Below are positions 5,867 through 62,352 of a stretch of 64,000 bases of DNA, piece after piece (the first letter of the stretch is position 1; each line of letters begins with the position of its first letter). Source of the stretch: Natribaculum luteum. Lineage in GTDB: Archaea; Halobacteriota; Halobacteria; Halobacteriales; Natrialbaceae. The translations under genes and the position numbers were made by a program. Under the pieces are notes generated by a model. That model did not search any database, was not told where the DNA came from, and saw nothing but the letters and a program-made list of their open reading frames with translations. Where the stretch lies: contig NZ_CP095397.1 in the NCBI RefSeq assembly GCF_023008545.1, forward strand, positions 1,488,001-1,552,000, in the 5' to 3' direction.

Positions 5867-5941
5867 GGGCACGTAGCTCAGTCCGGATAGAGCGTCGGAC
5901 TTCTAATCCGACGGTCGTGGGTTCGAATCCCATCGTGCCCG
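5867..5941 (+). tRNA. tRNA-Arg (anticodon TCT)
   Basis: A 75-base cloverleaf. Acceptor GGGCACG pairs with CGTGCCC (5934-5940) with discriminator G at 5941. The anticodon stem TCGGA/TCCGA encloses loop CTTCTAA with anticodon TCT at 5902-5904. The T-arm is GTGGG-TTCGAAT-CCCAT. CCA is not encoded. Its last bases form the left attachment site of the relic element that follows. Confidence 0.95.
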
Positions 5942-5943
5942 TA
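5929..5943 (+). other. Left attachment site (attL) inside tRNA-Arg
   Basis: The first copy of the 15-base direct repeat spans the T-stem 3' side, the acceptor 3' strand, the discriminator and two bases beyond. Identity stops exactly outside these 15 bases in the second copy. Confidence 0.7.
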
Positions 5944-6450: not shown

Positions 6451-6459
6451 ACTATATAT
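6451..6459 (+). promoter_or_regulatory. Possible TATA element ahead of the pilin pair
   Basis: ACTATATAT is the most AT-rich box upstream of the pilin genes. It lies about 145 bases before the chosen ATG (6603), which would imply a leader of about 115 bases. A weaker alternative, CGAATATC near 6568, is at normal leaderless distance. I cannot decide between them. Confidence 0.3.
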
Positions 6460-6602
6460 GGTACAAGTCTACTGGATGTTATCAGCATCTGCAACGAACG
6501 GGGGCGGAAAGCGTGGCCGCAGGGTCTATCCCCAGTCTTCGAGTGCCACCGGACAAACCAGAAGTCCGAATATCAGCTTTCCTACCGTTCAGGCGATGCG
6601 AA

Positions 6603-7067: not shown

Positions 7068-7071
7068 AAGC

Positions 7072-7551
7072 ATGTCTTGGCAAGCTACACTCGTGGGCAA
7101 TGAAAAAGAAAGAGCAGTATCGCCAGTCATTGGTGTGATACTGATGGTAGCAATTACTGTAATCTTAGCAGCAGTGATCGCTGCATTTGTCCTTGATCTT
7201 GGACAAGGCCAGCAAGACAATGCTCGAGCCGGTGTTCAGGTCGACGTCTCAGATAGTGCAAAAGAGGTGCAGATATCGGTGACGTCGTTAGACAACGCAG
7301 AAGAGGTTCTCATCCGAGGTGACGTAGGCGAGTGGGACGTTCCTGCTGGTGGTGGTAGCGGTTCATTCGCCGATGCTGAACCATCCCTATCTACGACAGG
7401 CGCATCTACCACGCTTGAATGGGAAAGTACGGGATCGAGAACAGATGGGGAAGTATACTTGTCGTCTAACTCGGGGACTCTCTCAGTTGTCGGAGTGACA
7501 GACGACGGAACAGAAACCACCATCCAAACCGTTGACTACGACTTCAGTTGA
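7072..7551 (+). CDS. Archaeal type IV pilin-like protein (2 of 2)
   Basis: This 159-residue protein starts four bases after the previous stop. Its first 45 residues after the leader are almost identical to the upstream pilin ([13 protein letters not shown] through LDLGQGQQ). The C-terminal domains differ strongly apart from the ending TTIQT. The pair looks like a tandem duplication with a conserved assembly helix and diversified exposed domains. Such pilins form adhesion filaments or minor pilins. Two consecutive pilins with no motor ATPase nearby must rely on assembly genes elsewhere. Confidence 0.87.
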   Translation: MSWQATLVGNEKERAVSPVIGVILMVAITVILAAVIAAFVLDLGQGQQDNARAGVQVDVSDSAKEVQISVTSLDNAEEVLIRGDVGEWDVPAGGGSGSFADAEPSLSTTGASTTLEWESTGSRTDGEVYLSSNSGTLSVVGVTDDGTETTIQTVDYDFS

Positions 7552-7559
7552 AGTCGTAG
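7536..7559 (+). terminator. Perfect stem-loop over the pilin stop codon
   Basis: CTACGACTTC (7536-7545) and GAAGTCGTAG (7550-7559) form a perfect 10-bp stem with the 4-base loop AGTT. The pilin TGA (7549-7551) lies in the loop/stem boundary. A pyrimidine- and T-containing stretch follows. A role in transcription termination or mRNA 3'-end protection is plausible. Confidence 0.5.
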
Positions 7560-7625
7560 CAGTCTTCACCAATTTTCACCGACACGTCCGTCAGCCTCGA
7601 CCGATGATGACGACGATCGACTTGG

Positions 7626-8018
7626 ATGATGAGACAGTACCACCGCCCGGACGTGACCGACGACTACGGCTGCAAACCTCTGATCGCGACTCAGTACGGC
7701 CGTCTGCCGGGCAACACGATCCGGAAGACGTTGTACCGGGTCACTCGTCCCTGTTGGCGCGACGAACCGTGCCCGCGCGACCGCGACCTCGAGGAGTGTG
7801 AAGCCGTCCATCTGGACCACGCGAGCACGTGCCCGTCGTCGCGATCTCCCCACGACGTCCGTAGTGGCCGGGTGGCCTACTATCGACGAGAAGACGTTCC
7901 CCGACGGATCGTCAAGGATCGGCTCAACGCGAGCGATGACATCCTCGATCGCCATTACGACCGCCGTTCCGACCGCGAACAGGCCGAACAGCGCAGTAAC
8001 TTCCTTCTGGACCTATGA
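7626..8018 (+). pseudogene. C-terminal fragment of haloarchaeal tyrosine integrase/recombinase
   Basis: The frame encodes the last ~125 residues of a XerC/D-like haloarchaeal integrase: VTDDYG..PLI.T.YGR, a Cys-bearing segment CWRDEPCPRD, then DHASTCPSSRSPHDVRSGRV with the catalytic H-x-x-R box, and LNASDDILDRHYDRR with the nucleophilic Tyr. The first part of the catalytic domain (first Arg, Lys) and the whole N-terminal core-binding domain are missing. The bases just upstream do not continue in frame. It lies about 50 bases from the right attachment repeat, as expected for a tRNA-targeting element. Confidence 0.8.
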
Positions 8019-8066
8019 GAGACACGAACGCGAAACGGAGAGTCGCATCGCACCAGGGCATCTCTA

Positions 8067-8081
8067 CCCATCGTGCCCGTA
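8067..8081 (+). other. Right attachment site (attR)
   Basis: This is the second copy of the 15-base direct repeat CCCATCGTGCCCGTA. The bases after it (ATTCTGCGGCGAAC) resemble the sequence that follows other tRNA 3' ends in this window, so this looks like the original downstream flank of tRNA-Arg before integration. Confidence 0.7.
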
Positions 8082-8157
8082 ATTCTGCGGCGAACGGACG
8101 TGAGGAGCGAATCTGGGAGCAACTTCGCTGCGACCGTGGTTCGAATCCCATCGTGCC
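8067..8157 (+). repeat. tRNA-Arg tail repeat: displaced downstream hairpin unit
   Basis: Read in the tRNA direction, the unit has: an acceptor-end copy (8067-8080); a spacer TTCTGCGGCGAAC; a partial inverted T-arm GCGAATC; a core GGGAGCAACTTCGCTGCGACCG; and another T-arm/acceptor copy (20 bases, 8138-8157, identical to tRNA 5920-5939). The 34 bases 8115-8148 differ at one position from the minus strand of 62097-62130 at the CAT tRNA locus. No coding potential is apparent. Confidence 0.7.
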
Positions 8158-39920: not shown

Positions 39921-39926
39921 AATGAG

Positions 39927-39999
39927 TGGGACCGCCCGGATTTGAACCGGGGTCACGGGCACCCAAGGCCCGAAGTATACCAGGCTAACCCACGGTCCC
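39927..39999 (-). tRNA. tRNA-Pro (anticodon TGG)
   Basis: A 73-base cloverleaf on the minus strand. Acceptor GGGACCG/CGGTCCC with discriminator A, anticodon stem GGGC/GCCC with loop CTTGGGT (anticodon TGG), and T-arm CCCGG-TTCAAAT-CCGGG. CCA is not encoded. Unlike the other four tRNAs here it has no partial copies of itself downstream. Confidence 0.95.
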
Positions 40000-49011: not shown

Positions 49012-49464
49012 ATGGAAAGATACCCGAAACCAGATGTTGACGACGTCGCAGGTGTTCTCGACCGACGCGCAGAAGCATTGCTCATCGACGGCCTCCTCGT
49101 GAGCGTCGTCGTCGGGGCACTCGGCTACGTAGCGGGTACCGTCCTCTCCGAGAGCGCACTCGGCGGTTTGGGGGGGCTGCTCGTCGCCCTGCAGTTTGGC
49201 GCACCCCTTGGCTTGCTGCTCTATCAGACCGGTCTCGAGGGATACTACGGCCAGACGATCGGCAAACGTCTCCGGGGCCTCGTCGTCGTCAGAGAAGACG
49301 GCTCGAGGTGTACGTGGGGTGCCGCTGTCGTGCGGAATCTCCTCCGGGTGATCGACGTGCTCCCCATTTTCTACCTCGTCGGGATCGTTTCGGCCTACGT
49401 CTCGTCGAATCACCAGCGACTCGGCGACCTCGTGGGGAAGACGCTCGTCGTCCACACCGAGTGA
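49012..49464 (+). CDS. RDD-family membrane protein
   Basis: The start is at MERYPKPDVDDVAGVLDRR (ATG 49012). The 150-residue protein has RRAEALLIDGLLV (the R...D segment of RDD), GQTIGKRLRGLVVV, and a final RLGDLVGKTLVVH. Three membrane segments lie between. RDD proteins are membrane proteins of mixed function, some implicated in ion exchange. The upstream sequence is very AT-rich (AAAAATTTAAACTATTATTG, 48979-48998), probably its promoter. Confidence 0.85.
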   Translation: MERYPKPDVDDVAGVLDRRAEALLIDGLLVSVVVGALGYVAGTVLSESALGGLGGLLVALQFGAPLGLLLYQTGLEGYYGQTIGKRLRGLVVVREDGSRCTWGAAVVRNLLRVIDVLPIFYLVGIVSAYVSSNHQRLGDLVGKTLVVHTE

Positions 49465-49539
49465 TCGCTCTCTGGAGCGCCGTCGACCCGTCACCGACCG
49501 GTGACGCGCTCGGCCCTCGTGAAGTTCTATCGCTCGAAA

Positions 49540-50018
49540 AAATACTCGCAGCAGAAGTATCGTCCCGAATACCGTATCCTCTGCTTACGAAGTTGTTCGC
49601 GGAGAATATGCCGCCTCCCGGATTTGAACCTCGCCGAGACGGTTCTGCTCGGTCGCTTCGCTCCCTGTGCGGACTGCGACTCGTCTGGTTCAAATCGCGG
49701 TCGGGTTGCATATTTACAGCTCGCGAATATGCTCGCCGCAAAAGTATGCCGCCTCCCGGATTTGAACTTCCGAAAGACTCGCTTTCGCTCGTCTTTCGAC
49801 TTCCCGCTCGCTGCGCTCGCGGGAACGGGGACAGCTCGATCTTCAGTCGAGTCCGACAGCTTCCCGAGTGGAAATCGCGCGGAAAAGCCATGCCACCTCC
49901 CGGATTTGAACCGGAGGAAGACGGTCGCCTTGCTTCGCTCGGGCGCTGCGACTTCCAGGGCTCAAATCGCGATCGGGTTGCACATTTGCAACTCGCGAGT
50001 ATGCTCGCCGCAAAAGTA
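49540..50018 (-). repeat. tRNA-Phe tail repeat cluster (three partial copies)
   Basis: Partial copies of the tRNA-Phe T-arm/acceptor end (CCGCCTCCCGGATTTGAAC or close) start at 49607, 49745 and 49889, before the real tRNA at 50019. Between copies lie spacers with inverted T-arms (GGTTCAAATC 49687-49696; CTCAAATC 49961-49968). Their cores are GC-rich, such as CTTCGCTC..GCGCTGCGAC, and a second conserved spacer CGCGAATATGCTCGCCGCAAAAG recurs with small changes before copies. One unit also contains a copy of the anticodon arm (49827-49852). There is no ORF with protein-like composition. Confidence 0.8.
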
Positions 50019-50092
50019 TGCCGCCTCCCGGATTTGAACCGGGGACAGCTCGATCTTCAGTCGAGTGCTCTCCCAGTCTGAGCTAAGGCGGC
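50019..50092 (-). tRNA. tRNA-Phe (anticodon GAA)
   Basis: A 74-base cloverleaf on the minus strand. Acceptor GCCGCCT/AGGCGGC with discriminator A, anticodon stem CTCGA/TCGAG with loop CTGAAGA (anticodon GAA), and T-arm CCCGG-TTCAAAT-CCGGG. CCA is not encoded. It is followed, in its own direction, by the tail repeat cluster. Confidence 0.96.
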
Positions 50093-50317
50093 GCATCTTA
50101 TCCTCGGTCGATGGTACAAAAAAGGATTTCGAATCCAGTTCGTCGAACCGAGCGGCCTTCGGCGAGTAAGCACTCACAACAGAATACCGGCTCCCGCATC
50201 AATTTCCCATTGATTATCTCCACGATACGTTCAGATCGTTCGAAAGTATGGTTACAGTGTGTCTGATCTTCAGATATTCAAGACACCCTTTTCCGCTCGG
50301 ATCGGTAACTCCCCGTT

Positions 50318-50764
50318 ATGGAACCCCTTACCACTAGTCAGGAGCCCAGAGAACTGACGGCGGATACGATCCTCGAGCTCCTCGCGAACCGTCGTCGACG
50401 ATACCTCCTCTACGCCCTTCGGGAGTACGACGAGCCTATCGAACTCTCGAAGCTCGCCGAGCAGGTCGCTGGCTGGGAACACGACGTTCCCCCGGATGAA
50501 GTCGCCAAAAACGAGTACAAGAGCGTCTACGTCTCGTCCGTCCAGTGCCACGTCCCGAAACTCGCCGACTCGGGCGTCGTCGACCACGACGAGAGCAACC
50601 ACACGGTCGTCCTCAGCGACAACTTCGAACAGTTGCAGCCGTACCTTCAGCTCGTGATGCTCGACGAACCACAGAACTCGACGCTCCACACCGCGCTCCA
50701 GAACAGCTCGAGCGACGGTCTCATCCGCCAGATCCGCGAGAACGTCGCCCGCCTCAAGCCCTGA
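50318..50764 (+). CDS. Haloarchaeal winged-helix regulator (DUF7344-like)
   Basis: This 148-residue protein has an N-terminal DNA-binding domain (TADTILELLANRRRRYLLYALREYDEPIELSKLAEQVAGWE, about 14-54). The pattern LLxNRRRRYLL-Y is characteristic of this haloarchaeal group. It then has KSVYVSSVQCHVPKLADSGVVDHDE (wing region) and a C-terminal tail without membrane helices. It lacks any receiver or sensor domain. Regulated genes are unknown. Confidence 0.8.
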   Translation: MEPLTTSQEPRELTADTILELLANRRRRYLLYALREYDEPIELSKLAEQVAGWEHDVPPDEVAKNEYKSVYVSSVQCHVPKLADSGVVDHDESNHTVVLSDNFEQLQPYLQLVMLDEPQNSTLHTALQNSSSDGLIRQIRENVARLKP

Positions 50765-50865
50765 CTACTGCCGACGAGCACTGGCTAGTGGTTTCTTAGT
50801 GTCGACTACTTTTCAACTCCTCCACCCGGACGAGTGGTGACTCCGAGTGTCGACAGCTCAGAGCG

Positions 50866-51347
50866 TGGCGGACTCGAGGCGGGCCGAACGACGCCGATGT
50901 GCTGGCGTCGCTTTCGGATCGCCGCGACCGACCCGTGTCGACTCGATTTCCTCTCGTCGTTGCTCTGCCGTCAGAAAGAAGCGATTGGGCAGATCCGTAA
51001 TCGATCTCTCCCGTGAACAGCCCGTGCTCGACTCGAGTTGGATCGATCTGCCTCGAGCTGTGCCCGTGCCACGGTACCTTGCTCGCGACAGCAATAGCAG
51101 GCTTGGGTGGGTTCGAACTACGCGAAGACGGTCGCTCTCGCGTTCGCTCGAGCGCTGCGTCTTCTCTTGTTCGAACCGCCACTCGCATTATACACCTGCT
51201 GCTCGCGGACTTGCTCGCAGCAGGAGTAGTGGGCTCGGGCGGGTTCGAACTACGCCGAGACGTGCTCGCGTCGCTGCGCGCGTCTCCTCTAGTTCGAACC
51301 GCCGCTCGCATACATTTCTCTGGCTCACTAATTGTTCGCCAGAGAAA
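50866..51347 (-). repeat. tRNA-Val tail repeat cluster (two clear copies, one decayed)
   Basis: Partial copies of the tRNA-Val acceptor/T-arm lie at 51230-51250 (TGGGCTCGGGCGGGTTCGAA continuing C) and 51100-51118 (one decayed form near 50873). Each is followed on the plus strand by a spacer ending in an inverted T-arm (GTTCGAACC 51292-51300; 51169-51177). Between copies, perfect hairpins occur: CATTTCTCTGGC/GCCAGAGAAATG (51313-51349), CCTGCTGC/GCAGCAGG (51195-51224) and GAAGACG/CGTCTTC (51124-51164). The upstream half of the gap from 50765 is less repetitive. Confidence 0.8.
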
Positions 51348-51421
51348 TGGGCTCGGGCGGGTTCGAACCACCGACCTCGGCCTTGTAAAGGCCGCGTCAT
51401 GACCAGCTAGACCACGAGCCC
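51348..51421 (-). tRNA. tRNA-Val (anticodon TAC)
   Basis: A 74-base cloverleaf. Acceptor GGGCTCG/CGAGCCC with discriminator A, anticodon stem CGGCC/GGCCG with loop TTTACAA (anticodon TAC), and T-arm GGTGG-TTCGAAC-CCGCC. CCA is not encoded. A perfect 12-bp inverted repeat begins at its 3' end. Confidence 0.96.
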
Positions 51422-51484
51422 GCATTCGAACGAAGACGGTCCGTCCGAATAACCTTTACCTTCTCGCCTCGCACCGTCGTGCGA

Positions 51485-51976
51485 ATGGACGTCAAGCGCG
51501 CGTGGTCTGCTCTCTCGGTCGTGGTTGTCGTCGTTCTGGTGGCGTTTCTTCTCGTTCAGTTCGGTTATCTTCCGGCTCCGTGGGGGGAAGACCGTGCGGA
51601 GGTTCGGGTCGTCGGTGACGACGGGACGACGAAAGCGGTCGTCGACGCCGACGTCGCCGACACCTGGGGCGAACGCCACACCGGTCTGAGCGAGCACGAC
51701 TCGCTCGCCGACGGCGAGGGGATGCTGTTCGTCCACTCGAGCGAGGGCGACCGCCGCTATGTCATGCGCGAGATGGACTTCGACATCGACATCCTGTTTA
51801 TCGGAGCCGACGGCGAGATCACGACGATTCGCCACGCCCGCGCGCCGGGGCCCGACGAGGACGGCGAGGACCTCGAGTACACCGGACGCGGGAAGTGGGT
51901 GCTCGAGGTGCCTCGAGGCTACGTCGACGAGACCGGTATCGAGGTCGGCGACGAGGTGCAGATCTCCTACGAGTGA
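51485..51976 (+). CDS. DUF192 family protein with N-terminal membrane anchor
   Basis: The start is at MDVKRAWSALSVVVVVVL (ATG 51485; a GTG at 51479 is an alternative). The 163-residue protein has one N-terminal membrane helix (SVVVVVVLVAFLLVQFG) and then a DUF192 domain: ADTWGERHTGLSEHDSL, GEGMLFVHSSEGDRRYVMREMDFDIDILFI and GKWVLEVPRG. DUF192 proteins are small extracytoplasmic beta-folds of unknown role. The order here is fully conserved. Confidence 0.85.
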   Translation: MDVKRAWSALSVVVVVVLVAFLLVQFGYLPAPWGEDRAEVRVVGDDGTTKAVVDADVADTWGERHTGLSEHDSLADGEGMLFVHSSEGDRRYVMREMDFDIDILFIGADGEITTIRHARAPGPDEDGEDLEYTGRGKWVLEVPRGYVDETGIEVGDEVQISYE

Positions 51977-52089
51977 TCGTTCGCCGCTCGAATCCGGCTC
52001 CCGTTCCGATGTCGATGACGGTCCGCCTCGAGATAGTATTTCGATTCGTAGGTAACGCTTATTGGTGCCGCTCCACTCACCGGAGAGTA

Positions 52090-54030
52090 ATGAGTAGCGT
52101 CGACTGGGAGCAAGACGATCCGTTCGAGGAGCAGCGAGCGGAGATCGAGAACCCGATGAAACGGCTGTTCCTCGCGTACGGGTGGGGATACAAGTTTCAG
52201 GCGGTCGTCGGCATCTTCGCGAGCGTCTTCGCCCGGATTCTCGATCTGCTGCCACCGATCATGCTGGCGGTCGCGATCGACGCCGTCTTCCGCGACGAGG
52301 CGACGTACGCCGAGGCGCTCCCGTTCGCGAGCGACTTCGTCGCCTCGTATGTCCCCGGGACGCAACTGGGCCAGTTCTGGCTGACGGTTGGCGTCATCGC
52401 CGGTGCCTTCTTCCTCGGCGCGGTGTTTCACTGGGTTCGCAACTGGGGGTTCAACTCCTTCGCCCAGAACATCCAGCACGACGTCCGGACCGACACGTAC
52501 GACAAGATGCAGCGGCTGAACATGGACTTCTTCGCCGACAAGCAGACCGGCGAGATGATGTCTATCCTCTCGAACGACGTCAACCGACTCGAGCGCTTTC
52601 TCAACGACGGGATGAACTCGCTGTTCCGACTGGTCGTCATGGTGATCGGCATCGGTCTCATCCTCGTCGCGTACAACTGGCAACTCGCGCTCGTCGCGCT
52701 GTTGCCGGTCCCGCTGATCGCCGGGTTCACGTACCTGTTCGTCAGGATCATCCAGCCGAAGTACGCTCAAGTTCGGTCTGCCGTCGGGAAGGTCAACTCG
52801 CGACTCGAGAACAACCTCGGCGGCATCCAGGTGATCAAAGCGAGCACCACCGAGGACTACGAGTCAGACCGCGTCGAGGACGTCTCGATGGACTACTTCG
52901 ACGCCAACTGGGACGCGATCGAAACCCGGATCAAGTTCTTCCCGGGACTGCGGGTCATCGCCGGCATCGGGTTCGTCGTCACGTTCGTCGTCGGCGGTCT
53001 GTGGGTGTTCCAGGGGCCACCCGGCCCGTTCACGGGCGAACTCCGGGAGGGGACGTTCGTCGCGTTCGTCCTCTACACCCAGCGCTTTATCTGGCCGATG
53101 GCCCAGTTCGGACAGATCATCAACATGTACCAGCGCGCCCGCGCCTCGAGTGCGCGTATCTTTGGCCTGATGGACGAACCCAGCCGCGTCGCCGAGGACC
53201 CGACGGCGACCGACCTCGAGATCACGGACGGTTGCGTCGAGTACGACGACGTCACCTTCGGCTACGACGACGAGGAGACGATCGTCGAGGACGTCGACTT
53301 CACGGTCGAGGGCGGCGAGACGGTCGCGCTCGTCGGCCCGACGGGAGCGGGGAAGTCGACAGTCCTGAAGCTCCTCCTCCGGATGTACGACGTCGACGAG
53401 GGTGCGATTCGAATCGACGGCCAGGACGTCCGGGACGTCACCCTCCAGAGCCTGCGCGAGGCGACGGGGTACGTCAGCCAGGACACCTTCCTGTTTTACG
53501 GCACCGTCGAGGAGAACGTCGCCTACGGCACGTTCGACGCGGATCGCGAGGACGTAATCGAGGCCGCGAAGATGGCCGAGGCACACGAGTTCATCACGAA
53601 CTTGCCCGACGGCTACGACACCGAGGTCGGCGAACGCGGCGTCAAGCTCTCAGGTGGGCAGCGCCAGCGCATCTCCATCGCGCGGGCGATACTCACGGAC
53701 CCGGACGTCCTGATCCTCGACGAGGCGACAAGCGACGTCGACACGGAGACGGAGATGCTCATCCAGCGTTCGATCGACGAACTCGCCGCCGACCGGACGA
53801 CGTTCGCCATCGCCCACCGGCTCTCGACGATCAAAGACGCCGACACGATTCTCGTCCTCGAGGACGGGCGAATCGTCGAGCGCGGCACCCACGAGGCGTT
53901 GCTCGAGAACGACGGGCTCTACGCCCACCTCTGGGGGGTACAGGCCGGAGAGATCGACGAACTCCCCGAAGAGTTCATCGAGCGGGCGCAACGTCGCCAG
54001 GCCCGGACAGAAGTCGGTAACGACGACTGA
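52090..54030 (+). CDS. ABC exporter (membrane domain fused to ATPase)
   Basis: This 646-residue half-transporter has a type IV exporter membrane domain (about 25-370, six helices; NFFADKQTGEMMS-like coupling segment MDFFADKQTGEMM). The nucleotide-binding domain has Walker A GPTGAGKST (about 417-425), signature LSGGQRQRIS (about 520-529) and LILDEATSDVD. It resembles MsbA/multidrug exporters and would work as a dimer. The acidic N-terminus has no signal peptide. The substrate is unknown. Confidence 0.93.
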   Translation: MSSVDWEQDDPFEEQRAEIENPMKRLFLAYGWGYKFQAVVGIFASVFARILDLLPPIMLAVAIDAVFRDEATYAEALPFASDFVASYVPGTQLGQFWLTVGVIAGAFFLGAVFHWVRNWGFNSFAQNIQHDVRTDTYDKMQRLNMDFFADKQTGEMMSILSNDVNRLERFLNDGMNSLFRLVVMVIGIGLILVAYNWQLALVALLPVPLIAGFTYLFVRIIQPKYAQVRSAVGKVNSRLENNLGGIQVIKASTTEDYESDRVEDVSMDYFDANWDAIETRIKFFPGLRVIAGIGFVVTFVVGGLWVFQGPPGPFTGELREGTFVAFVLYTQRFIWPMAQFGQIINMYQRARASSARIFGLMDEPSRVAEDPTATDLEITDGCVEYDDVTFGYDDEETIVEDVDFTVEGGETVALVGPTGAGKSTVLKLLLRMYDVDEGAIRIDGQDVRDVTLQSLREATGYVSQDTFLFYGTVEENVAYGTFDADREDVIEAAKMAEAHEFITNLPDGYDTEVGERGVKLSGGQRQRISIARAILTDPDVLILDEATSDVDTETEMLIQRSIDELAADRTTFAIAHRLSTIKDADTILVLEDGRIVERGTHEALLENDGLYAHLWGVQAGEIDELPEEFIERAQRRQARTEVGNDD

Positions 54031-54062
54031 GCTGCTTCGGTTCGCACGCGCCGCAGCGTTTC

Positions 54063-54144
54063 ATACGGTCTGCTGTACCTCTTTTCCGCAGCGACCGCGT
54101 CCCGTCGGGCGGTCGCTGCGGGACGGACGTACAGCGGCCCGTAT
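54063..54144. repeat. Palindromic repeat element, copy 2
   Basis: The outer arms ATACGGTCTGCTGTAC (54063-54078) and GTACAGCGGCCCGTAT (54129-54144) pair except at two positions. The inner arms CCGCAGCGACCGC (54086-54098) and GCGGTCGCTGCGG (54109-54121) pair perfectly. It fills the gap between the ABC exporter gene and the convergent gene that follows, touching the latter's stop codon. Its first 16 bases are identical to copy 1. Confidence 0.7.
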
Positions 54145-54488
54145 CAGAACGATTCCTGGTTGCGCTGTCCCTCCTGGCCAGGTGCACCCTCGTCCTGTCT
54201 GTCTTCGCCCGGCGCGGGCGGCGTCCGATCGCTGTAGTTCTTGCGACCGATCGCCTCGTCGCCGACCATGTTCATGATCGCCTGTTCGACCTCGCCGTAC
54301 GTTCTGTACTCGTCTTCGTTCAGCGGCTCGATGAGTTCCTCGAGCGTCGTCGTCTCTCCGGCCAGTTCGAGCTCCTCGTCGCCGTAGGCCTCGAGCAGTT
54401 CGTCCTGGCTCGCCGGGTACTCGTGGTCTTTCAGCTTCCCGCTCAAGTCGCCCAGCTCCACGCCAAGCTCGCGGCTGTCGTCGCTCAT
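54144..54488 (-). CDS. DUF2795-type small protein
   Basis: This 114-residue protein begins MSDDSRELGVELGDLSGKLKDHEYPASQDEL. An N-terminal ~70-residue helical domain has the LKDHEYPASQDELLEAYGD...LNEDEYRTYGEVEQAIMNM pattern of the DUF2795 fold. It is followed by a disordered acidic/Gln-rich tail. Function is not established for the family. The palindromic repeat abuts its stop codon, so this element may act as its terminator. Confidence 0.75.
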   Translation of the reverse strand: MSDDSRELGVELGDLSGKLKDHEYPASQDELLEAYGDEELELAGETTTLEELIEPLNEDEYRTYGEVEQAIMNMVGDEAIGRKNYSDRTPPAPGEDRQDEGAPGQEGQRNQESF

Positions 54489-54594
54489 GCTCGGGTCGAG
54501 TACGGACGCCGGGATACCGTTTGGGCCTGCCCTCGCGTGCCGTCGACACCGTCGAGGCGTCGGTTACAAGACGTAAGCGCCCGTCGAAGCCGGC

Positions 54595-55356
54595 ATGCAC
54601 CTCGAGCGAGCCACCTGGACGGACGTCGCGGACCTCGAGACGAACCTCGCGGTGCTCCCGGTCGGGAGCACGGAACAGCACGGCCCCCACGCTCCGCTGG
54701 GCACCGACGCACTGGCCGCGGAAGCCGTCGCCGAGGCAGGCGCTGACGCCTTCGACGGCGAGGTCGTCGTCGCACCGCGGATCTCCGTGGGGATCTCCGA
54801 AGAGCACCGTCAGTTCCCCGGGACGATGTGGGTCTCGCCCGACACCTTCCGGGCGTACGTCCGCGAGGCCGTCGACAGCCTCGCCGCCCACGGCCTCGAC
54901 CGGGTCGTCCTCGTCAACGGCCACGGGGGTAACATCGACGCCCTTCGCGAGGTCGCAGGGACGATCACGCGCCACGACGACGCCTACGCCGTCCCGTTCA
55001 CCTGGTTCGAGGCCGTCGGCGACCACTCGAGCGACATGGGCCACGGCGGCCCACTCGAGACGGCGCTCGTGCGGGCCGTCCACCCCGACCTCGTCCGTGA
55101 GGAGCGAATCGAGGACGCACGCGAGGGCGCTGCCGACGGCTGGGGCGAGTGGGTAAGCTACGCGAACCTCGCGTACGATTCGGCCGAGTTTACGGAAAAC
55201 GGCGTCGTCGGCGACCCCGCCGAGGGCGACGCGGCACGCGGCGACGAACTGCTCGAGCTGGCGGCGGCGTCGCTGGCGCGGCTGCTCGAGGCAGTCGCCC
55301 AGCGAGACGTCTCGCGGCCCGACCGGCGGCCAACTGACCCGGACGAGGCCGACTAG
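54595..55356 (+). CDS. Creatininase-family amidohydrolase
   Basis: This 253-residue protein has LPVGSTEQHGPHAPLGTDALAAE (metal-ligand Glu, His, Asp, about 21-43), VNGHGGNIDALRE (near 105) and GDHSSDMGHGGPLETAL (near 142). These are the creatininase metal-site segments. Family members include creatinine amidohydrolase and formamide hydrolases of riboflavin/F420 synthesis in archaea (ArfB). Which reaction it performs cannot be settled from sequence alone. It overlaps the next gene tail to tail by four bases. Confidence 0.85.
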   Translation: MHLERATWTDVADLETNLAVLPVGSTEQHGPHAPLGTDALAAEAVAEAGADAFDGEVVVAPRISVGISEEHRQFPGTMWVSPDTFRAYVREAVDSLAAHGLDRVVLVNGHGGNIDALREVAGTITRHDDAYAVPFTWFEAVGDHSSDMGHGGPLETALVRAVHPDLVREERIEDAREGAADGWGEWVSYANLAYDSAEFTENGVVGDPAEGDAARGDELLELAAASLARLLEAVAQRDVSRPDRRPTDPDEAD

Positions 55357-55775
55357 TCGTCGCCGTCGGATTCGTCCTCGTCGTCGGGGCCGGCGCTCTC
55401 GAGCGTTCCCCGGAGTGCCGGAATCGTCGAGGTGAGGTCGCCGACCTGGTCGCTCGCCTCGGAGATGTCGCCGATGGCCTCCTCGACCGCCGCGATCTCC
55501 TCCTCGAGGTCGTCGGCATCGTCGAAGGCATCTGCGCGCTGGCCCATCGTGAACCACTTTTTCGCGTCGCGGAGGTGCGCCTCGGCGTCGCCGGCGTCGA
55601 GTGCCGTCTTCAGTCCGTTGAGCACGCCAAGCACGTTGTCTGCGTCGGTCTCCCAGACGTCGTCGGCTTCGGGGAGGGCGTTCCAGGCTTCCTCGAGCGA
55701 GGATTCGACGTCCGATCGCATCTCGCTTGCCGCTTCGCCGAACAGTTCGTCGTCGTCGAGCGCCGTCTGGCTCAT
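55353..55775 (-). CDS. DUF5790-like acidic helical protein
   Basis: This 140-residue protein is almost wholly helical: SQTALDDDELFGEAASEMRSD, LEEAWNALPEADDVWETDADNVLGVLNGLK and a C-terminal coiled coil (ADDLEEEIAAVEEAIGDI). It ends in an Asp-rich tail. No metal or catalytic motifs are seen. It is a common haloarchaeal hypothetical with unknown function. The gap to the next gene (55776-56038) holds nothing clear. Confidence 0.65.
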   Translation of the reverse strand: MSQTALDDDELFGEAASEMRSDVESSLEEAWNALPEADDVWETDADNVLGVLNGLKTALDAGDAEAHLRDAKKWFTMGQRADAFDDADDLEEEIAAVEEAIGDISEASDQVGDLTSTIPALRGTLESAGPDDEDESDGDD

Positions 55776-56038
55776 GTCAGCACCTTCACGCCCCCTTCGG
55801 TTAAAAGGTAGCCCGAAAGTGAAAGTGAAAAACGGCTCTCGAGGGCGTCACTCAAGAAGATAGCGGCTGGATTTCGAAAGCCATGACGTCGGCCGTGTGG
55901 GTCGAAGCGATCTCCGAACGTTCTCCAGAATCGCCGCCGCTTCTCGGACGGATCGCTCGTCGATCGACCGGGCGTATTCAGTACGCGGTCCGGTGAAGAC
56001 GAATGATTTCAGCGGCGGAGATCGTCTCCGAGCCATCG

Positions 56039-56401
56039 TTACTCGTCCGGGCCGCGAACCGAAACGACCTGCATCAGCGGGTACCCGTCCTCCATCGCCA
56101 TCCGCGTGAGGACCTCCTGTCCCTCATACTCGACGACGATTTCGACCTCGAGGAATCGACCCGTCAACTCGGTGTAGTCGGCGGCCGCGTCCTCGAGTGC
56201 CGCCGCCAGCGCGTCGGTTTTGACGTCGACGCTGACCTCGGTACAGTGGGGCTGGTTCTCGATCGACTCCTCCATCGCCGTCTCGAGGCTCGGGGCGCTC
56301 TCCGGCGAGACGGGCGTGCCGGCGAACTGGTGGTAGAGCGATCCGAACTTGATACCCGCCTCGAAACAGGCGACTTCGGCGTCGGTCGGCGTATCGTCCA
56401 T
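56039..56401 (-). CDS. mptD: Archaeal dihydroneopterin aldolase MptD
   Basis: This 120-residue protein contains CFEAGIKFGSLYHQFAGTPVSPESAPSLETAMEESI (about 11-46) and YTELTGRFLEVEIVVEYEGQEVLTRM. This matches MptD, which converts 7,8-dihydroneopterin to 6-hydroxymethyl-dihydropterin and glycolaldehyde for tetrahydrofolate/methanopterin-type pterins. The conserved Glu at the start of EAGIKFG and the His in LYHQF are plausible active-site residues. There is no signal peptide. Confidence 0.88.
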   Translation of the reverse strand: MDDTPTDAEVACFEAGIKFGSLYHQFAGTPVSPESAPSLETAMEESIENQPHCTEVSVDVKTDALAAALEDAAADYTELTGRFLEVEIVVEYEGQEVLTRMAMEDGYPLMQVVSVRGPDE

Positions 56402-56501
56402 GGTCGGCGGATCGACCGCGAGTGTGATGGCCGTTGTGGTCCCACGCGCGTCGGACGGAATCGCACGTTACTTATCGCTCGTGGCTCTTCACTCCGAACG
56501 A

Positions 56502-57242
56502 ATGGCACAGTCGGTCCTGCTCACCGGGGCTGTGGGGCGCGTCGGGGAGGCGATCCTCGCCGACCTCGGTGACGAGTACGAGTGGCGGTTGCTCGATCGC
56601 GACCCGCCGACGGGCGACCACCCGGGCGAGTTCGTCGTCGCCGACATCACCGACGACGAGGCGGTCCGCGAAGCGATGGAGGGTATCGACGCGGTGATCC
56701 ACCTCGCCGGCGACCCCCGGCCGGAAGCGCCGTGGGACAGCGTCCTCACGAACAACATCGACGGCACGCAGACGGTCTTCGAGGCGGCGGTCGACGCCGG
56801 CGTCGAGAAAGTGGCCTTCGCCTCCTCGAACCACGCCGTCGGTGCGTACGAAACCGACGAGCGAACGCCCGAGATGTACCGCGCACACGACGAGTTCCGC
56901 CTCGACGGAACCGAACTTCCCCGGCCCGGCAACCTCTACGGCGTCTCGAAGGCCGCCGGGGAGACGCTCGGGCGCTACTACCACGACGAGTACGGACTCT
57001 CGGTCGTCTGCGTTCGCATCGGCAACCTCACGAAGGGACACCCGCCGATCGACTACGAGCGCGGGCAGGCGATGTGGCTCTCCTACCGCGACTGCGCGCA
57101 CCTGTTCGATCGCTGCGTCAAGGCCGACTACGACTACGAGATCGTCTACGGCATCTCCGACAACGACCGGAAGTACTACTCGCTCGAGCGCGCTCGAGAG
57201 GTCCTCGACTACGACCCGCAGGACAACTCCGCCGAACACTGA
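56502..57242 (+). CDS. azf: NAD-dependent glucose-6-phosphate dehydrogenase Azf
   Basis: The start is at MAQSVLLTGAVGRVGEAI (ATG 56502). The 246-residue SDR has the NAD motif TGAVGRVG (8-15) and catalytic Tyr/Lys in LYGVSKAAGETLGRYYH (Tyr about 146, Lys about 150). AVIHLAGDPRPEAPWDS and ISDNDRKYYSLERAREVL are close to the haloarchaeal zwischenferment Azf, the first enzyme of the oxidative pentose phosphate pathway. The C-terminus is shorter than some homologues I know, ending DPQDNSAEH. Confidence 0.9.
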   Translation: MAQSVLLTGAVGRVGEAILADLGDEYEWRLLDRDPPTGDHPGEFVVADITDDEAVREAMEGIDAVIHLAGDPRPEAPWDSVLTNNIDGTQTVFEAAVDAGVEKVAFASSNHAVGAYETDERTPEMYRAHDEFRLDGTELPRPGNLYGVSKAAGETLGRYYHDEYGLSVVCVRIGNLTKGHPPIDYERGQAMWLSYRDCAHLFDRCVKADYDYEIVYGISDNDRKYYSLERAREVLDYDPQDNSAEH

Positions 57243-57857
57243 TCAGAACAGCCCGCTTACGTCCTCTTCTTTCGCTCTCCGTCGGTCGACGTGTCCCGAG
57301 AGGCGATCGTAGACGATCCCGCGGTCGTCGTCCTCGCGGACGAAGTCGAACAGCAACGTGATGAATCGGCTGTCGTCTCGCCCCGCCTCGAGGTCGGCCA
57401 GGGCGTACTTGCCGGCTGCCTCGACCGGCGTCGCGTCGTAGCCGAACTCCTCGGCGAGGACGCCGGCCGCGATCGCCGTCTCTGTGACCTCGAGGTCCGC
57501 GAGGCGTGGAACCTCGTCCTCGTAGCCGACGGGTTCCGGTCGCCGTCGGTCGATCACCGCTGGATCGGTGGCGAGGACCTCGAGGTACGCCTGGACGGAG
57601 GCGAGTCGAACCCCACGGTACGCGTCTGGAAGTCCCGCGAGATACTCGAGTGCGCTCTCGGCCAGGCCCACGGCACCCGTCCAGTTGCGATTGCGCGCGT
57701 GGTAGACGGCCCCCGTGTACTGGATCAGCCCGTGGAGCAGGCGCTCGTCGTCGGTGTCGGACTCGAGGGCGAGCCAGCGTGCTTCCCAGGCGTCGTGGGC
57801 GGCGTGGTAGTAGCCGTCGTTGTAGATGGCGATCCCGGCCCGGAGCGCGTCTCGCAT
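57243..57857 (-). CDS. DUF309 family protein
   Basis: This 204-residue protein has an N-terminal helical bundle with YNDGYYHAAHDAWEARWLALE and LLHGLIQYTGAVYHARNRNWTGAVGLAESALEYL (about 12-75). This is the DUF309 core with conserved Tyr/His/Glu/Trp residues. A C-terminal acidic/Arg region of about 100 residues ends GHVDRRRAKEEDVSGLF. Function unknown. Its stop codon abuts that of azf with no intervening base. Confidence 0.78.
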   Translation of the reverse strand: MRDALRAGIAIYNDGYYHAAHDAWEARWLALESDTDDERLLHGLIQYTGAVYHARNRNWTGAVGLAESALEYLAGLPDAYRGVRLASVQAYLEVLATDPAVIDRRRPEPVGYEDEVPRLADLEVTETAIAAGVLAEEFGYDATPVEAAGKYALADLEAGRDDSRFITLLFDFVREDDDRGIVYDRLSGHVDRRRAKEEDVSGLF

Positions 57858-58169
57858 GTGGGATCGTTCGCGCTCCGGACCGATATACTGTGGGACGTGC
57901 CGATCCGTGCGAACTCACCCGCCGACGTGAGTTCGCTCGAGGACCCGTCTCTCGAACCGCGTCGCTGGCACGTCCGATCTGGGGGCGTAGGCCGGATACT
58001 GCCGCCTCCGGCAGGGCGAGTGGACAGTGTGGTATCCGGGACGAGGCGTCGGCTCGTCCCGACCGGTTACTGGCCGCCACCGGTCGAGGCGGTACTCGAC
58101 CGGACGGCGTGGTCGTACATGAGTATGATGTCGTTTCTGGTGACTCTGGTGTGGTTTGATACGTCTTAC
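57858..58169. other. Intergenic region, 312 bases
   Basis: No gene, RNA or strong repeat is seen. The DNA remains GC-rich, except for a small AT patch (GGTTTGATACGTCTTACTC, about 58152-58170) at the stop of the peptidase gene. The promoter of the DUF309 gene is expected next to 57858 but is weak. Confidence 0.35.
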
Positions 58170-59267
58170 TCAGCGCTCGAAGCCGTCTTCCCAGCGGAAT
58201 CGTCCGTTCCGCTGGACGACCTCGTCGTCGACCTCGAGTCGCGCGTCCTCGCTGACGTCGGTGATCAGGTCGGCGTGGACGGCCGAGTCGTTGCCCGACT
58301 CGCCGTCGGGGAGACAGGCGTCGTAGGCGCGACCGACCGCGAGGTGGACCGTCTCGCCCATCTTCTCGTCGAAGAGGATGTTGTCCGTGTAGCGGTCGAT
58401 CCCGCGGTTCATCCCGACGCCCAGTTCGCCGAGTCGGCGCGCACCGGGATCGGTCTCGAGGACGTCGCCGACCACGTCCGCGCCCGTCGCGGCGTCGTAG
58501 TCGACGACCTCGCCGTCTTCGAACTCGAGGTGGACGTCCCGGACCTGCTGTCCTCGCAGGGTCATCGGCACGTCGAACAGCACCTCGCCGTCGGTCCCGT
58601 ATGGCGCGGTGAAGACCTCGCCGCTGGGGAGGTTGTGCGAGTCGTACTCGACCGACGCGGCACTGTTGACCGCGGTTCGATCGTCGATCGACATCGTGAG
58701 GTCGGTCTCCGGTCCGACCAGTCGGACCTCGCTCCCCGCGTCGAGGATCGATTTCAACTTTGCCATCTCGGCCGCCAGCGACTCCCAGTCGCGGAGGATC
58801 GCGTCGTAGGCGAACTCCCGGTACTCCTCGTAGGCCATGTTCGCCTGCTGGGCGAGCGCCCGCGTCGGGTGGGCGGTCGAGACCCACCGGGTGTCGTAGC
58901 GCGCCTCGCGAATCTCCTGGCGAGCCCTGCGGTAGGCCTGGCGCGTCTCGCCCGGCACGTCGGCCGTCGCACTCGTGTTCCGCCCGCCGCCTAGCGAGAG
59001 GTAGACGTCGGCGTGCTCGAGCAACGCGAGTTCGTGGGCGGGATTCGACTCGAAGTCGCCGTCGTGGGCCTGCAGGTAGGCTCGCTGTACCTCGCCGGAG
59101 CCGTAGGTCGCGAGCAGGTTCGCACCGCGTTCACCGAGTTTTTCGGCGACGGCGACCGCGAGTTCGTGAGCGTCCGGGCCGACGGAGACGACCACGTCGT
59201 CGCCCGCCTCGACTCGAGCACTCCAGTCGATCAGTATCTCCGCGTGTTCGCGAACGCGTTCGTCCAT
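58170..59267 (-). CDS. M29-family aminopeptidase (second copy)
   Basis: This 365-residue paralogue of the protein at 8718-9800 begins MDERVREHAEILIDWSARVEAG. It has the same key segments: GEVFTAPYGTDGEVLFDVPM, LGELGVGMNRGIDRY, NILFDEKMGETVHLAVGRAYD and HADLITDVSEDA. Metal-site Glu, His and Asp are retained in both copies. The spread of substitutions points to an old duplication rather than a recent one. It is upstream of and on the same strand as no obvious partner gene. Confidence 0.9.
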   Translation of the reverse strand: MDERVREHAEILIDWSARVEAGDDVVVSVGPDAHELAVAVAEKLGERGANLLATYGSGEVQRAYLQAHDGDFESNPAHELALLEHADVYLSLGGGRNTSATADVPGETRQAYRRARQEIREARYDTRWVSTAHPTRALAQQANMAYEEYREFAYDAILRDWESLAAEMAKLKSILDAGSEVRLVGPETDLTMSIDDRTAVNSAASVEYDSHNLPSGEVFTAPYGTDGEVLFDVPMTLRGQQVRDVHLEFEDGEVVDYDAATGADVVGDVLETDPGARRLGELGVGMNRGIDRYTDNILFDEKMGETVHLAVGRAYDACLPDGESGNDSAVHADLITDVSEDARLEVDDEVVQRNGRFRWEDGFER

Positions 59268-59327
59268 ACTTCGACGGACGCTCCGGACCGCATAAACGAT
59301 CCTCGTTCCGGACGGTGACGCCGGCTT

Positions 59328-60056
59328 TCAGGCCGTCGCGGCGTCCTCGGTGCCGACTCCCCGCCGCGAGCGCACGAGGTAGACGATCGCGTAGACGACG
59401 GGCGTGTCGAGGACGGCGATGGCGAGTTTCAGCAGGTACTGGCCGACGATCAGCGAGAGCACGACCTCGAGTGGGAGGACGACACCGACGCCGAGAAGCG
59501 ACGGCGCGACCGCGAACGCGATCGAGACGAAGATGACGGTGTCGATCGCCTGGCTGCTCGCCGTCGAGGCGACGTTTCGCAGCCAGAGATGGTCGCGGCC
59601 GGTGTACTCGCGAATGCGGTGGAAGACGATCACGTCCCAGTTCTGGCTGACGACGTACGCCAGCAGACTGCCGAGGACGACGTTCGTCGACGCACCGAGC
59701 ACGTTCGCGAACGCACCGGGGTCGATGCTCGTCTCCGCTGCCGGCGCGGCGATCGTCGACCAGACGAGCGCGAGCACGACGAAGTTGAGGACGAACGCCA
59801 CGTTGACGACGATCTGTGCCGCTCGTCGACCGTATAGTTCGGCGTAACAGTCGCTCGCGAGAAACGTCAGCGCGTACGCCAGCGCCGCCCCGGGGAGGAC
59901 GAGGTCGGATCCGGTGATCGGAATCGAGAACGGCACCGAAAAGGCGAGCACCTTCGACGCCGTGAGCTGTGCCGTCACCAGTGCCGCGACGAACAGGCCG
60001 ATGAGCGACACCTGTGGAACCGTCGGATGTGCGCCTCGAGTCTGTGTCATGAACAC
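59328..60056 (-). CDS. Queuosine-precursor (YhhQ/VUT) family transporter
   Basis: This 242-residue protein has six membrane helices with the family motif FLASDCYAELYGRRAAQ (about 68-84), YVVSQNWDVIVFHRIRE and ASTASSQAIDTVIF. This family imports queuine or preQ-type bases in bacteria. In archaea it probably imports a precursor for archaeosine (inference). A start at MTQTRGAHPT (60050) is possible. Confidence 0.88.
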   Translation of the reverse strand: MFMTQTRGAHPTVPQVSLIGLFVAALVTAQLTASKVLAFSVPFSIPITGSDLVLPGAALAYALTFLASDCYAELYGRRAAQIVVNVAFVLNFVVLALVWSTIAAPAAETSIDPGAFANVLGASTNVVLGSLLAYVVSQNWDVIVFHRIREYTGRDHLWLRNVASTASSQAIDTVIFVSIAFAVAPSLLGVGVVLPLEVVLSLIVGQYLLKLAIAVLDTPVVYAIVYLVRSRRGVGTEDAATA

Positions 60057-60447
60057 GACGTACTCGGGCGACGACCGTAAACGATGCTATTCGACGGTGA
60101 CTTCGGTCCTCTCTTGATAATCGTTTGGTATTCTCAGCTCCCCGCTCGACCTCGAGACGTCCGCCAGTGGTGTGGAGGCCGGCGAGACGACGATCGGCAC
60201 GATACACCGCTCGACGGGCCTCACACTGAGGAGTTCGGCGTCATCCGATCGAGGTGCCCCAGAACGATCTCGGCGACCACTCGATACCGATGATCAGCTA
60301 CGACCGATCGACGAGCCGACCGTCGACCGCCAGCAGATGCACGACTCGTCGCCACCGGCCACACCTCTGCCACCGAACTGACACAACGTACTCGAGTCGA
60401 ACATGTTCGGAGCGAACCTTTCCCCTGTGGGCGTCCTACAAAGGGGT
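60057..60447. other. Divergent intergenic region, 391 bases
   Basis: It separates the YhhQ-like and MoaD-like genes. AT-rich patches (CTTGATAATCGTTTGGTATTC, about 60114-60134) could hold the promoter for the transporter. No clear TATA box is visible immediately before the MoaD-like gene (the start of 60448 is preceded by CAAAGGGG). No gene or RNA is supported. Confidence 0.35.
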
Positions 60448-60843
60448 ATGGCTACCGAAGCGACTTCACGGGAGATGCTCGAGACGACGACGGTCGAGGT
60501 CCGCTGTACGGGCCACGTCCGCGACGCCGTCGGGACACCCTCGCTCGAATACACGTTCGAGGGCTCGACGCTGGGCGAGTTCCTCGAGGCCTTCTTCGAC
60601 GACTACGACGTCGAGGACCTGCTCATCGCCGAGACGGAAGCCGATGCGACGGCACACGGCTGGGCACCCGTCCCCGACGAGTTACCGGGAACCTGGCGGA
60701 AGAACCCCGACGGCGAGCAGACGCGGACGTACGCCCGGGTCTGTATCAACGGCCGATTCAACGAACACGTCGACGGGTTCGCGACCGAACTCGAGGACGG
60801 CGACCGCGTCGCGTTGATCTACCCGTTCATGTTCTGCTGCTGA
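60448..60843 (+). CDS. MoaD/ThiS-like ubiquitin-fold protein without Gly-Gly end
   Basis: The start is at MATEATSREMLETTTVEVR (ATG 60448). The 131-residue protein has the beta-grasp pattern VEVRCTGHVRDAVGTPSLEYTFEGSTLGEFLEAFF and FATELEDGDRVALIYPFMFCC. It ends in FMFCC rather than the GG that MoaD, ThiS and SAMP proteins need for adenylation. It may therefore not be conjugated, or may need processing. Whether it is an active sulfur carrier is uncertain. Confidence 0.7.
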   Translation: MATEATSREMLETTTVEVRCTGHVRDAVGTPSLEYTFEGSTLGEFLEAFFDDYDVEDLLIAETEADATAHGWAPVPDELPGTWRKNPDGEQTRTYARVCINGRFNEHVDGFATELEDGDRVALIYPFMFCC

Positions 60844-60904
60844 TGTCTCGTCCCGATTCGTTCGCTCCCGGACTGACGAACCGCCGTCTCCGAGGCCGAT
60901 TCGC

Positions 60905-61228
60905 GTGACCGACGACGATCACGCGACCCCGACAGAACACGTCGCGCTCGCCGACCTCGAGGATCGACCCCACGCACAGGTATTCGACGGCGAACCGCGC
61001 ACGGTCCGGCTCGCACTCGAGGCGGGCGAGGGCGTCGCTTCCCATCGCCACCCCGACCGGCGGATCGTCCTCCACGTCCTCGAGGGCCGGCTGGCGGTGA
61101 CGCTGGGCGACGACGAGCACGTCGTCGAGCGAGGCGAACTCCTGCAGTTCGACGGACGACGGTCCGTCGCGCCGGAGGCGCTCGAGGACAGCGTGGCGGT
61201 GATCGTGCTGGCTCCTCGCGTCGCGTAG
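60905..61228 (+). CDS. Single-domain cupin
   Basis: This 107-residue protein (GTG start) has the cupin boxes GEGVASHRHPDRRIVLHVLEGRLAVTLGD and RGELLQFDGRRSVAPEAL. Metal-binding His are present in HRHPD and VLHVLEG, but the second box is unusual, with SVAPE where a His is expected. Function unknown. It sits between MoaD-like and the minus-strand small gene. Confidence 0.8.
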   Translation: MTDDDHATPTEHVALADLEDRPHAQVFDGEPRTVRLALEAGEGVASHRHPDRRIVLHVLEGRLAVTLGDDEHVVERGELLQFDGRRSVAPEALEDSVAVIVLAPRVA

Positions 61229-61248
61229 CGACCCGCTCTCGAGTCGGA

Positions 61249-61536
61249 CTACCGCTCGTCTCCCAGCCCGTCGGCGACCTCGTCGAGTCGATCGCGCACC
61301 TGCCGGGCCTCCTCGAGCGTCAACTCGACGTCGGCGTGGCCCGTCCCGTGGTCGCCCGCCATCGCGTCGACTGTGAACAGCACGCGGTCGCGTTCGCTCG
61401 CCTGCACCGAGACGTCCGCACGATCGGGATAGTCGCGCGGTCGGCCGATCTCGAGGTCGTACTCGCCGCGCGTCACGCCGATGCTCACGTAGTCGGGATG
61501 CTCGAGATCGATCGAGTCTGCCGGTTCGTCGGACAT
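61249..61536 (-). CDS. DUF6360-like hypothetical protein
   Basis: This 95-residue acidic protein (start MSDEPADSIDLEHPDYVSIG, ATG 61536) has the pattern GVTRGEYDLEIGRPRDYPDRADVSVQ and a C-terminal helix TLEEARQVRDRLDEVADGL. The fold looks like a small alpha/beta domain of unknown function, common in haloarchaea. It has no metal or membrane motif. It is convergent with the cupin gene, 20 bases apart. Confidence 0.7.
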   Translation of the reverse strand: MSDEPADSIDLEHPDYVSIGVTRGEYDLEIGRPRDYPDRADVSVQASERDRVLFTVDAMAGDHGTGHADVELTLEEARQVRDRLDEVADGLGDER

Positions 61537-61669
61537 ACGTAGCACCTCTCCGGCGAGTTTCTTAGTTACACGGCTCGAGGTCGATCCCGGTCTCGATCGG
61601 TGCCAGCGTGGGGCGGGCTGGGATGGCGATTATCGAAGATCGCACTGTCGACCGTCGGAACGTGTCGAC

Positions 61670-61879
61670 GTGTTCCCCACACCGTTCGCACTCCTCGGTT
61701 CCACCGCGCCGGTTCGTGTTCGTGACTGTACTATCGGCCAGGTCTATCAGAAGCGACGAGCGCGACGAAGACAGAACCGCACGGAGAGCGCCGCCGCCAG
61801 GATACAGAACTGTCCGGACTGTGGCGCACCGAACGATCCGGAGCGAACGAGGTGCAAATACTGCGGTACGGTGCTGTAA
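61670..61879 (+). pseudogene. Fragment ending in a zinc ribbon
   Basis: Only the last ~24 residues of this frame look real: QNCPDCGAPNDPERTRCKYCGTVL is a compact two-pair zinc ribbon (CPDCG...CKYCG) as found at the C-terminus of several haloarchaeal proteins. The preceding part is Arg-rich and lacks protein-like character, and no plausible start is seen. It is probably the remnant of a decayed gene. On the opposite strand the same region could encode a second CERCG zinc-finger piece, also without a convincing start. Confidence 0.35.
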
Positions 61880-62040
61880 TCGGCCAACGGCCACGGCGAG
61901 ACCGTCACGCCGACCACCCCGTTTCGGATACGAATTTCGCACGCAGGCGTCGACCCGAAACCAGTGACTGGTTCGGTTCCGGTTCAGACACCCCCTCGAG
62001 CGAAACAGAAATCCGGCGGCTCGAGTGGGTCAGGGTGCGA

Positions 62041-62187
62041 TTAGCGGCCGAATTTATTTCGGCCACGAATCGACTTATTTTTGGATGGGCCATGACGGAT
62101 TCGAACCACGGTCGCAGCGAAGCTGCTCCCTGATTCGAATCCGCCAGCGTTCCATTCCACACTGCTCGCTGTCGCTCGCAGGTTCCA
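62041..62187 (-). repeat. CAT-tRNA tail repeat unit
   Basis: One partial copy of the CAT-tRNA acceptor/T-arm end occurs at 62086-62108 (TGGGCCATGACGGATTCGAA continuing CCA). It is followed on the plus strand by a core (62107-62130) and an inverted T-arm TTCGAATCC (62134-62142), pairing with GGATTCGAA (62097-62105). The core is almost the same as that at the tRNA-Arg locus. A further stem GGCCGAA/TTCGGCC (62046-62064) lies on the outer side. Confidence 0.75.
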
Positions 62188-62262
62188 TGGGCCCTGACGG
62201 ATTCGAACCATCGACCACTCGGTTATGAGCCGAGCGCTCTAACCAGACTGAGCTAAGGGCCC
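62188..62262 (-). tRNA. tRNA with CAT anticodon (Ile2 likely, elongator Met possible)
   Basis: A 75-base cloverleaf on the minus strand. Acceptor GGGCCCT/AGGGCCC with discriminator A, anticodon stem CTCGG/CCGAG with loop CTCATAA, and T-arm GATGG-TTCGAAT-CCGTC. It is not the initiator type (no AGC-type acceptor). Haloarchaeal elongator Met genes that I know carry an intron in the anticodon loop, and this one has none. That favours tRNA-Ile with modified CAT; this assignment is inference. Confidence 0.85.
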
Positions 62263-62352
62263 GTGCAAGCGAAGGAAAAACGTGCGTGATAGTTAACCCT
62301 TGCTGTCCGACTCGCTCGAGAAAAACGGCCGCTTCAGACGCCGTCTGCGCCG

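Follow-up and report, generated by a model that had tools for sequence, protein, structure and literature searches.

Hairpin-bearing units behind tRNA genes of Natribaculum luteum and other haloarchaea as probable minimal site-specific mobile elements

The tRNA-Met(CAT) gene of Natribaculum luteum is followed directly by a second, partly inverted rendering of its own 3' end, which raises the question of what such sequences are: relics of past integration, signals in a transcript or DNA elements in their own right. The window considered here, i.e., the whole 64,000-nucleotide stretch at positions 1488001-1552000 of the 3.66-Mb chromosome, contains five tRNA genes detected by ARAGORN; the genome survey of N. 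luteum drew on tRNA-centred stretches and 100 kb of control stretches, and Natribaculum breve served as the close relative. We find that non-coding, hairpin-bearing units of about 100-160 bp adjoin the 3' side of many tRNA genes in nearly all haloarchaea examined and comprise, in order, a hairpin A, an inverted T-arm, an inner hairpin B and a direct copy of the tRNA 3' end. In behavior they recall integrative elements of minimal size or integron cassettes that carry no gene, yet they lack a defining feature of each. They probably represent a Halobacteria-wide family of non-coding, non-autonomous, site-specific mobile elements, in which the attachment site makes up nearly the entire element. 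Searches of the open literature turned up no earlier description; as they took in a minority of subscription papers, this is weak evidence.

Tail units in the window and the genome

The tRNA genes of the window and their tails are as follows:
62188..62262, minus strand: tRNA-Met(CAT), the anchor (ARAGORN; Rfam RF00005, 70.9 bits)
62086..62187, minus strand: tail unit of tRNA-Met, 102 nt (sequence comparison, folds)
62147..62187, minus strand: hairpin A region with tandem G.A motif (CTGC-GAGC..GCGA-GCAG; sequence and folds)
62131..62146, within about 62124-62147, minus strand: inverted T-arm copy (left arm, TGGCGGATTCGAATCA)
62107..62130, minus strand: inner hairpin B1 (GGGAGCAGCTTCGCTGCGACCGTG), common to the whole class
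62086..62106, minus strand: direct copy of tRNA positions 53-73, 95% identical
51348..51421, minus strand: tRNA-Val(TAC) (ARAGORN)
51098..51347, minus strand: two tandem tail units of tRNA-Val, 118 and 132 nt
50019..50092, minus strand: tRNA-Phe(GAA) (ARAGORN)
49609..50018, minus strand: three tandem tail units of tRNA-Phe (128, 144 and 138 nt; five in the congener)
39926..39999, minus strand: tRNA-Pro(TGG), without unit, the negative case (ARAGORN)
5867..5941, plus strand: tRNA-Arg(TCT) (ARAGORN)
8080..8157, plus strand: tRNA-Arg(TCT) tail unit, displaced by 2.1 kb through an insertion, its hairpin of the B1 type

The tail unit that the initial annotation had reported at tRNA-Met(CAT) is real, with both the direct copy and the inverted T-arm present. 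There is no gap between the gene and its unit, and the direct copy corresponds to the last 21 nt of the tRNA; the 24-nt direct copy at 62085-62108 is 96% identical to 62187-62210. The inverted arm pairs with the direct arm, giving two hairpins in all, and the fold of the unit beats 200 of 200 shuffles (z of -4.4 as DNA and -5.9 as RNA). Immediately past the unit, at 62044-62063, lies a small hairpin-like sequence, GGCCGAAATAAATTCGGCC, perhaps a terminator. An Rfam scan of 49400-62300 matched the tRNAs only and assigned the units to no family.

The further claim that four of the five tRNAs carry units is correct if the displaced unit of tRNA-Arg(TCT) is counted along with the three at Phe, two at Val and one at Met. 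The Arg unit retains an identical 20-nt copy of its tRNA (5920-5939 and 8138-8157) and stands 2.1 kb away because a 2138-bp segment (5944-8081), flanked by the 15-bp direct repeat CCCATCGTGCCCGTA at 5929-5943 and 8067-8081, separates the two. This segment carries two archaeal type IV pilin-like genes, and a recognised integrase is absent among the ORFs scanned in it.

At 25 of the 46 chromosomal tRNAs, the last 21 nt of the gene recur one to three times on the same strand in the 900 bp downstream, as against 1/51 in the upstream control. This bears out the general association with tRNA genes that had been proposed from the window, and the lack of enrichment that would have refuted it is not seen. 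Most of these copies are spaced 75-145 bp apart and are 81-100% identical; 8% of non-cognate pairs also match in a cross-control, because tRNA ends resemble each other. One of the 25, Ala-CGC, has a short copy only, without hairpins. The B1 inner hairpin occurs seven times in 545 kb, each time 3' of a tRNA and on its strand, and a whole-genome search with the Met tail recovered the inner part at ten more places, nine of them behind tRNAs and one being the displaced Arg unit. The inner hairpins fall into few types, each common to different tRNA isotypes, and the arms fit the local tRNA. At two identical tRNA-Asp(GTC) genes 1.1 kb apart (L032, 1028265 and 1029390), the first tail units are nearly identical, so that each gene and its tail were apparently copied as one block.

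Distribution and conserved structure

The exact B1 pattern, when searched over 84,980 species, yielded 34 stretches, all from haloarchaea. Nearly all of these lie directly 3' of tRNAs of many isotypes and have cognate arms, the exceptions being a contig edge, a displaced copy and a protein-gene case. Of 194 Halobacteria genomes, 183 contain a strict inverted-arm pattern, and 63 of 65 genera are represented among them (none with the reversed control); in the rest of the phylum, the pattern is present in 1 of 203 genomes. The B1 pattern had no match in collections of viruses, plasmids and phages. A looser inverted-arm pattern returned 29 stretches from viral contigs that lack the unit anatomy; these apparently combine chance matches and palindromic tRNA-like sites, and we set them aside.

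The structure of the hairpin that the inverted arm, B and the direct arm form together has been conserved. The core GTTCRAA is present in all aligned B1 units. Compensatory change in B1 amounts to 56 double-change cells against 20.6 in shuffled data and includes an inner-stem C-G to G-C replacement, the covariation of the arms being partly a consequence of tRNA identity. GNA triloops form the apical loop in 18 of the 41 stem-bearing clusters of inner hairpins, against 0.26 expected; tandem G.A occurs in 34, against 2.6 expected, and GNRA tetraloops are absent. GCGAAGC is known as an extraordinarily stable DNA mini-hairpin (e.g., PMC4686876, PMC10527192), and the GNA triloops together with the tandem G.A suit a folded single-stranded DNA; the G.A motifs are not read as kink-turns, the three-base bulge being absent. 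In copies at the ends of arrays, the acceptor part has decayed (0.85) and the T-arm has been kept (0.975), a pattern due either to constraint acting on the hairpin or to its correction; the hairpin may additionally serve some role in place. A composite tandem array at the tRNA-Leu(TAG) of Halobacteriales archaeon YIM A00013 (L065, 1752-2074) holds three B1 units with 146-bp spacing.

Turnover at tRNA genes and insertion at protein genes

Comparison with N. breve, based on 43 tRNAs that are nearly all identical in sequence between the congeners, shows that the number of units differs at 15, agrees with units present at 11 and is zero in both at 17. At His, Trp, Leu-CAA and Val-GAC, units are present or absent with base precision behind identical tRNAs. 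The Phe array, with its three against five units, has grown by exact tandem duplication. At Val-CAC and Glu-TTC, the inner B module has been swapped between conserved arms, with hairpin A and the downstream flank remaining orthologous. At tRNA-His, many genomes of the family have kept a recognisable first hairpin A, and the inner hairpins there belong to many types. As the means of moving B modules, homologous recombination between different tRNAs was considered and rejected, since inspection revealed too little shared arm sequence at the module edges.

In N. breve, a 15-kb insertion that carries type I restriction-modification genes together with a Phage_integrase gene separates tRNA-Glu(TTC) from its tail unit (L124, 2119-17423). 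The suggestion that units act as decoy att sites protecting the tRNA finds no support in what is a very small sample (n=2): both larger insertions looked at, the 2.1-kb one at Arg-TCT and the 15-kb one at Glu-TTC, lie at the tRNA rather than at a unit, between the intact gene and its units.

Units are also found away from tRNAs. Three units in tandem adjoin the 3' end of a Natronorubrum texcoconense gene for an OB-fold-like protein (weak match to PF01796, under its cut-off). This gene contains the T-arm-like ACCGGTTCGAACCGGT and terminates in a palindromic stretch, CCGGTTCGAACCGGTC, whose likeness to a T-arm arose by chance. Most of 31 homologous gene-end loci are empty; units are present in N. 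texcoconense (two loci) and in the genomes G467, G066 (three units) and G429, at homologous or paralogous genes, and G404 has a remnant resembling hairpin A. For G429, an exact orthologous empty site is available in G426, with which it shares the downstream gene: what G429 has in addition is TCCCTG..CCGT plus GGTTCGAACCGGTCTGA, immediately after the stop codon, which amounts to a second copy of GGTTCGAACCGGTCTGA. Thus, about 100 bp were inserted precisely, with 17 bp of the target duplicated; the boundaries, read by eye, do not show the terminal inverted repeats and short target duplication of MITEs. The G429 unit is 92% identical to one of those in N. texcoconense (G118), as against 77% for the host genes. 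This excess of unit over host-gene identity between genera points to mobility, although a unit under stronger constraint than its gene could also produce it.

Taken together, units insert exactly where a palindrome (GGTTCRAAYCC), either a T-arm or one resembling it, has its 3' edge. In the process the 3' side of the target is duplicated, over about 21 nt at tRNAs and 17 bp at the protein gene, which leaves the host gene with an intact 3' end. Between close relatives, unit numbers change in a precise manner, and the units form tandem stacks.

Competing explanations, mechanism and parallels

These observations have to be weighed against readings that dispense with mobile units. The tail could be an RNA element, i.e., a transcribed 3' trailer of the pre-tRNA acting in 3'-end processing, stability or termination, with repeats arising by unequal recombination. 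Such a role would accord with the invariable placement of tRNA-associated units on the tRNA strand, 0-4 nt behind the gene, with the strong RNA fold and compensatory changes, and with the retention of hairpin arms where the acceptor copy decays. However, a unit able to occupy the end of a protein gene is no tRNA processing signal, and these protein-gene sites, with the orthologous empty site and the identity gap, argue for mobility at the DNA level. Further, about 45% of N. luteum tRNAs have no unit, identical tRNAs differ in units between the congeners, GNA triloops are many and GNRA loops are lacking, no Rfam family matches, and T-rich stretches just 3' of many tRNAs suggest that transcription may end before the hairpins. 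Hence, we consider the RNA reading, which the initial annotation had listed among its options as processing or termination signals, unlikely on account of the protein-gene sites, the gain and loss and the loop types.

The same annotation had also entertained scars of att-site recombination, i.e., copies left passively by repeated integration and decay of ordinary tRNA-targeting viruses or plasmids. Here the link to site-specific insertion stands, and scar is not the most apt label: the units are discrete, recurrent and modular, insert precisely and occur at a non-tRNA gene too. Against passive scars speak the regular size, the two-hairpin anatomy, inner modules that recur at many tRNA isotypes and in many genera, and a clean insertion that consists of about 100 bp and no other remnant, as well as the inverted arms, which, as had been correctly noted, are unexpected from simple att scars. 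That the copies match the tRNA 3' end, the usual att core and the part that archaeal integrases mostly target (reviewed in PMC8371274), and that larger insertions do happen at unit-bearing tRNAs, still leaves this explanation quite improbable. Least probable, in our assessment, is that no recombinase was needed, the units having arisen through local template switching or slippage at the palindromic T-arm and gene conversion having carried them from tail to tail. Quasi-palindrome correction would account for the cognate inverted arms, and exact tandem duplication does expand arrays (Phe, and the Leu-TAG array of L065), yet this leaves unexplained how a complete unit came to a new site at a protein gene and why units are more alike between genera than their host genes.

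For the mobile units that we favor, the following course of events is plausible. A tyrosine recombinase acting in trans would use the T-arm palindrome as core and join this with its counterpart in an excised unit. Perhaps the sense strand would act as a folded single-stranded hairpin, its stem recreating the duplex T-arm as in integron attC sites, recombination of which is strand-selective (PMC8946536). Hairpin (quasi-palindrome) correction, together with exchange of the repeated core, might keep the arms cognate, and inner B modules might be swapped between arms. Against mobile units it must be said that few Phage_integrase matches of the genome lie near a tRNA, that none reaches the integron-integrase cut-off, that B1 is absent from the viral, plasmid and phage collections, and that simple conservative recombination does not explain why both arms, direct and inverted, are tRNA-matched and the B modules are common to different tRNAs. 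A more specific version, in which a gene-free, integron-like archaeal system uses T-arms as resident sites and folded single-stranded units as cassettes, reshuffled by a trans recombinase with the arms re-made for each target, is tentative, and we rather doubt it.

The parallels with known systems are partial in each case. With integron attC sites and gene cassettes the units share a hairpin of inverted complementary arms, an unpaired spacer and a variable tip, a tandem array behind a fixed site, a strand-asymmetric fold, and conserved ends with varying contents. Unlike integrons, they have no gene in the cassette, and the genome encodes no integron integrase (TIGR02249) over the cut-off, the best match scoring 46 bits against 265. 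Further, their core, GTTCRAA, is unlike the integron consensus, GTTRRRY, and their fixed sites are dozens of tRNA genes to which the arms are matched. As in tRNA-targeted integrative elements of the SSV, pT26-2 and SNJ2 type, the core is the 3' part of the tRNA, duplicated and restored on insertion (PMC8371274). Unlike these, the units measure 100-160 bp, are non-coding, lack a cis integrase, and have inverted arms, common inner modules and a class-wide distribution. The MITEs and palindrome-associated transposable elements (PATEs) of haloarchaea are likewise short, non-coding, hairpin-rich and non-autonomous (PMC3119063). The units differ from them in lacking terminal inverted repeats at the outer ends, in the target duplication of 17-21 nt and in having the T-arm as target. 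XerCD-dependent dif modules are site-specific and served by a recombinase in trans, as proposed for the units, but have another core, carry genes and are not hairpin units at tRNAs.

If the units are indeed mobile, nearly all haloarchaea would harbor an overlooked family of minimal mobile DNA beside their most conserved genes, one showing the lower size bound of site-specific elements and offering a natural test case for folded-strand recombination outside bacteria. It would explain the odd partial tRNA sequences of haloarchaeal genomes, and the units would mark fast-evolving, precisely bounded loci useful for strain typing and recombinase discovery. The N. luteum genome has 14 Phage_integrase matches, few of them near tRNAs (within 2 kb of two tRNAs). 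At tRNA-Ala(GGC), which has no tail unit, integrase matches lie 0.4 and 7 kb downstream (C1, 2598835-2606255). Clusters of extra, mostly low-scoring tRNA genes occur on the second replicon of N. luteum (L022, contig C2, 681273-683008), where tail units are absent from the cluster, and in N. breve (C1 at about 7-11 kb and C2 at about 586-588 kb); these clusters are possibly virus- or plasmid-borne.
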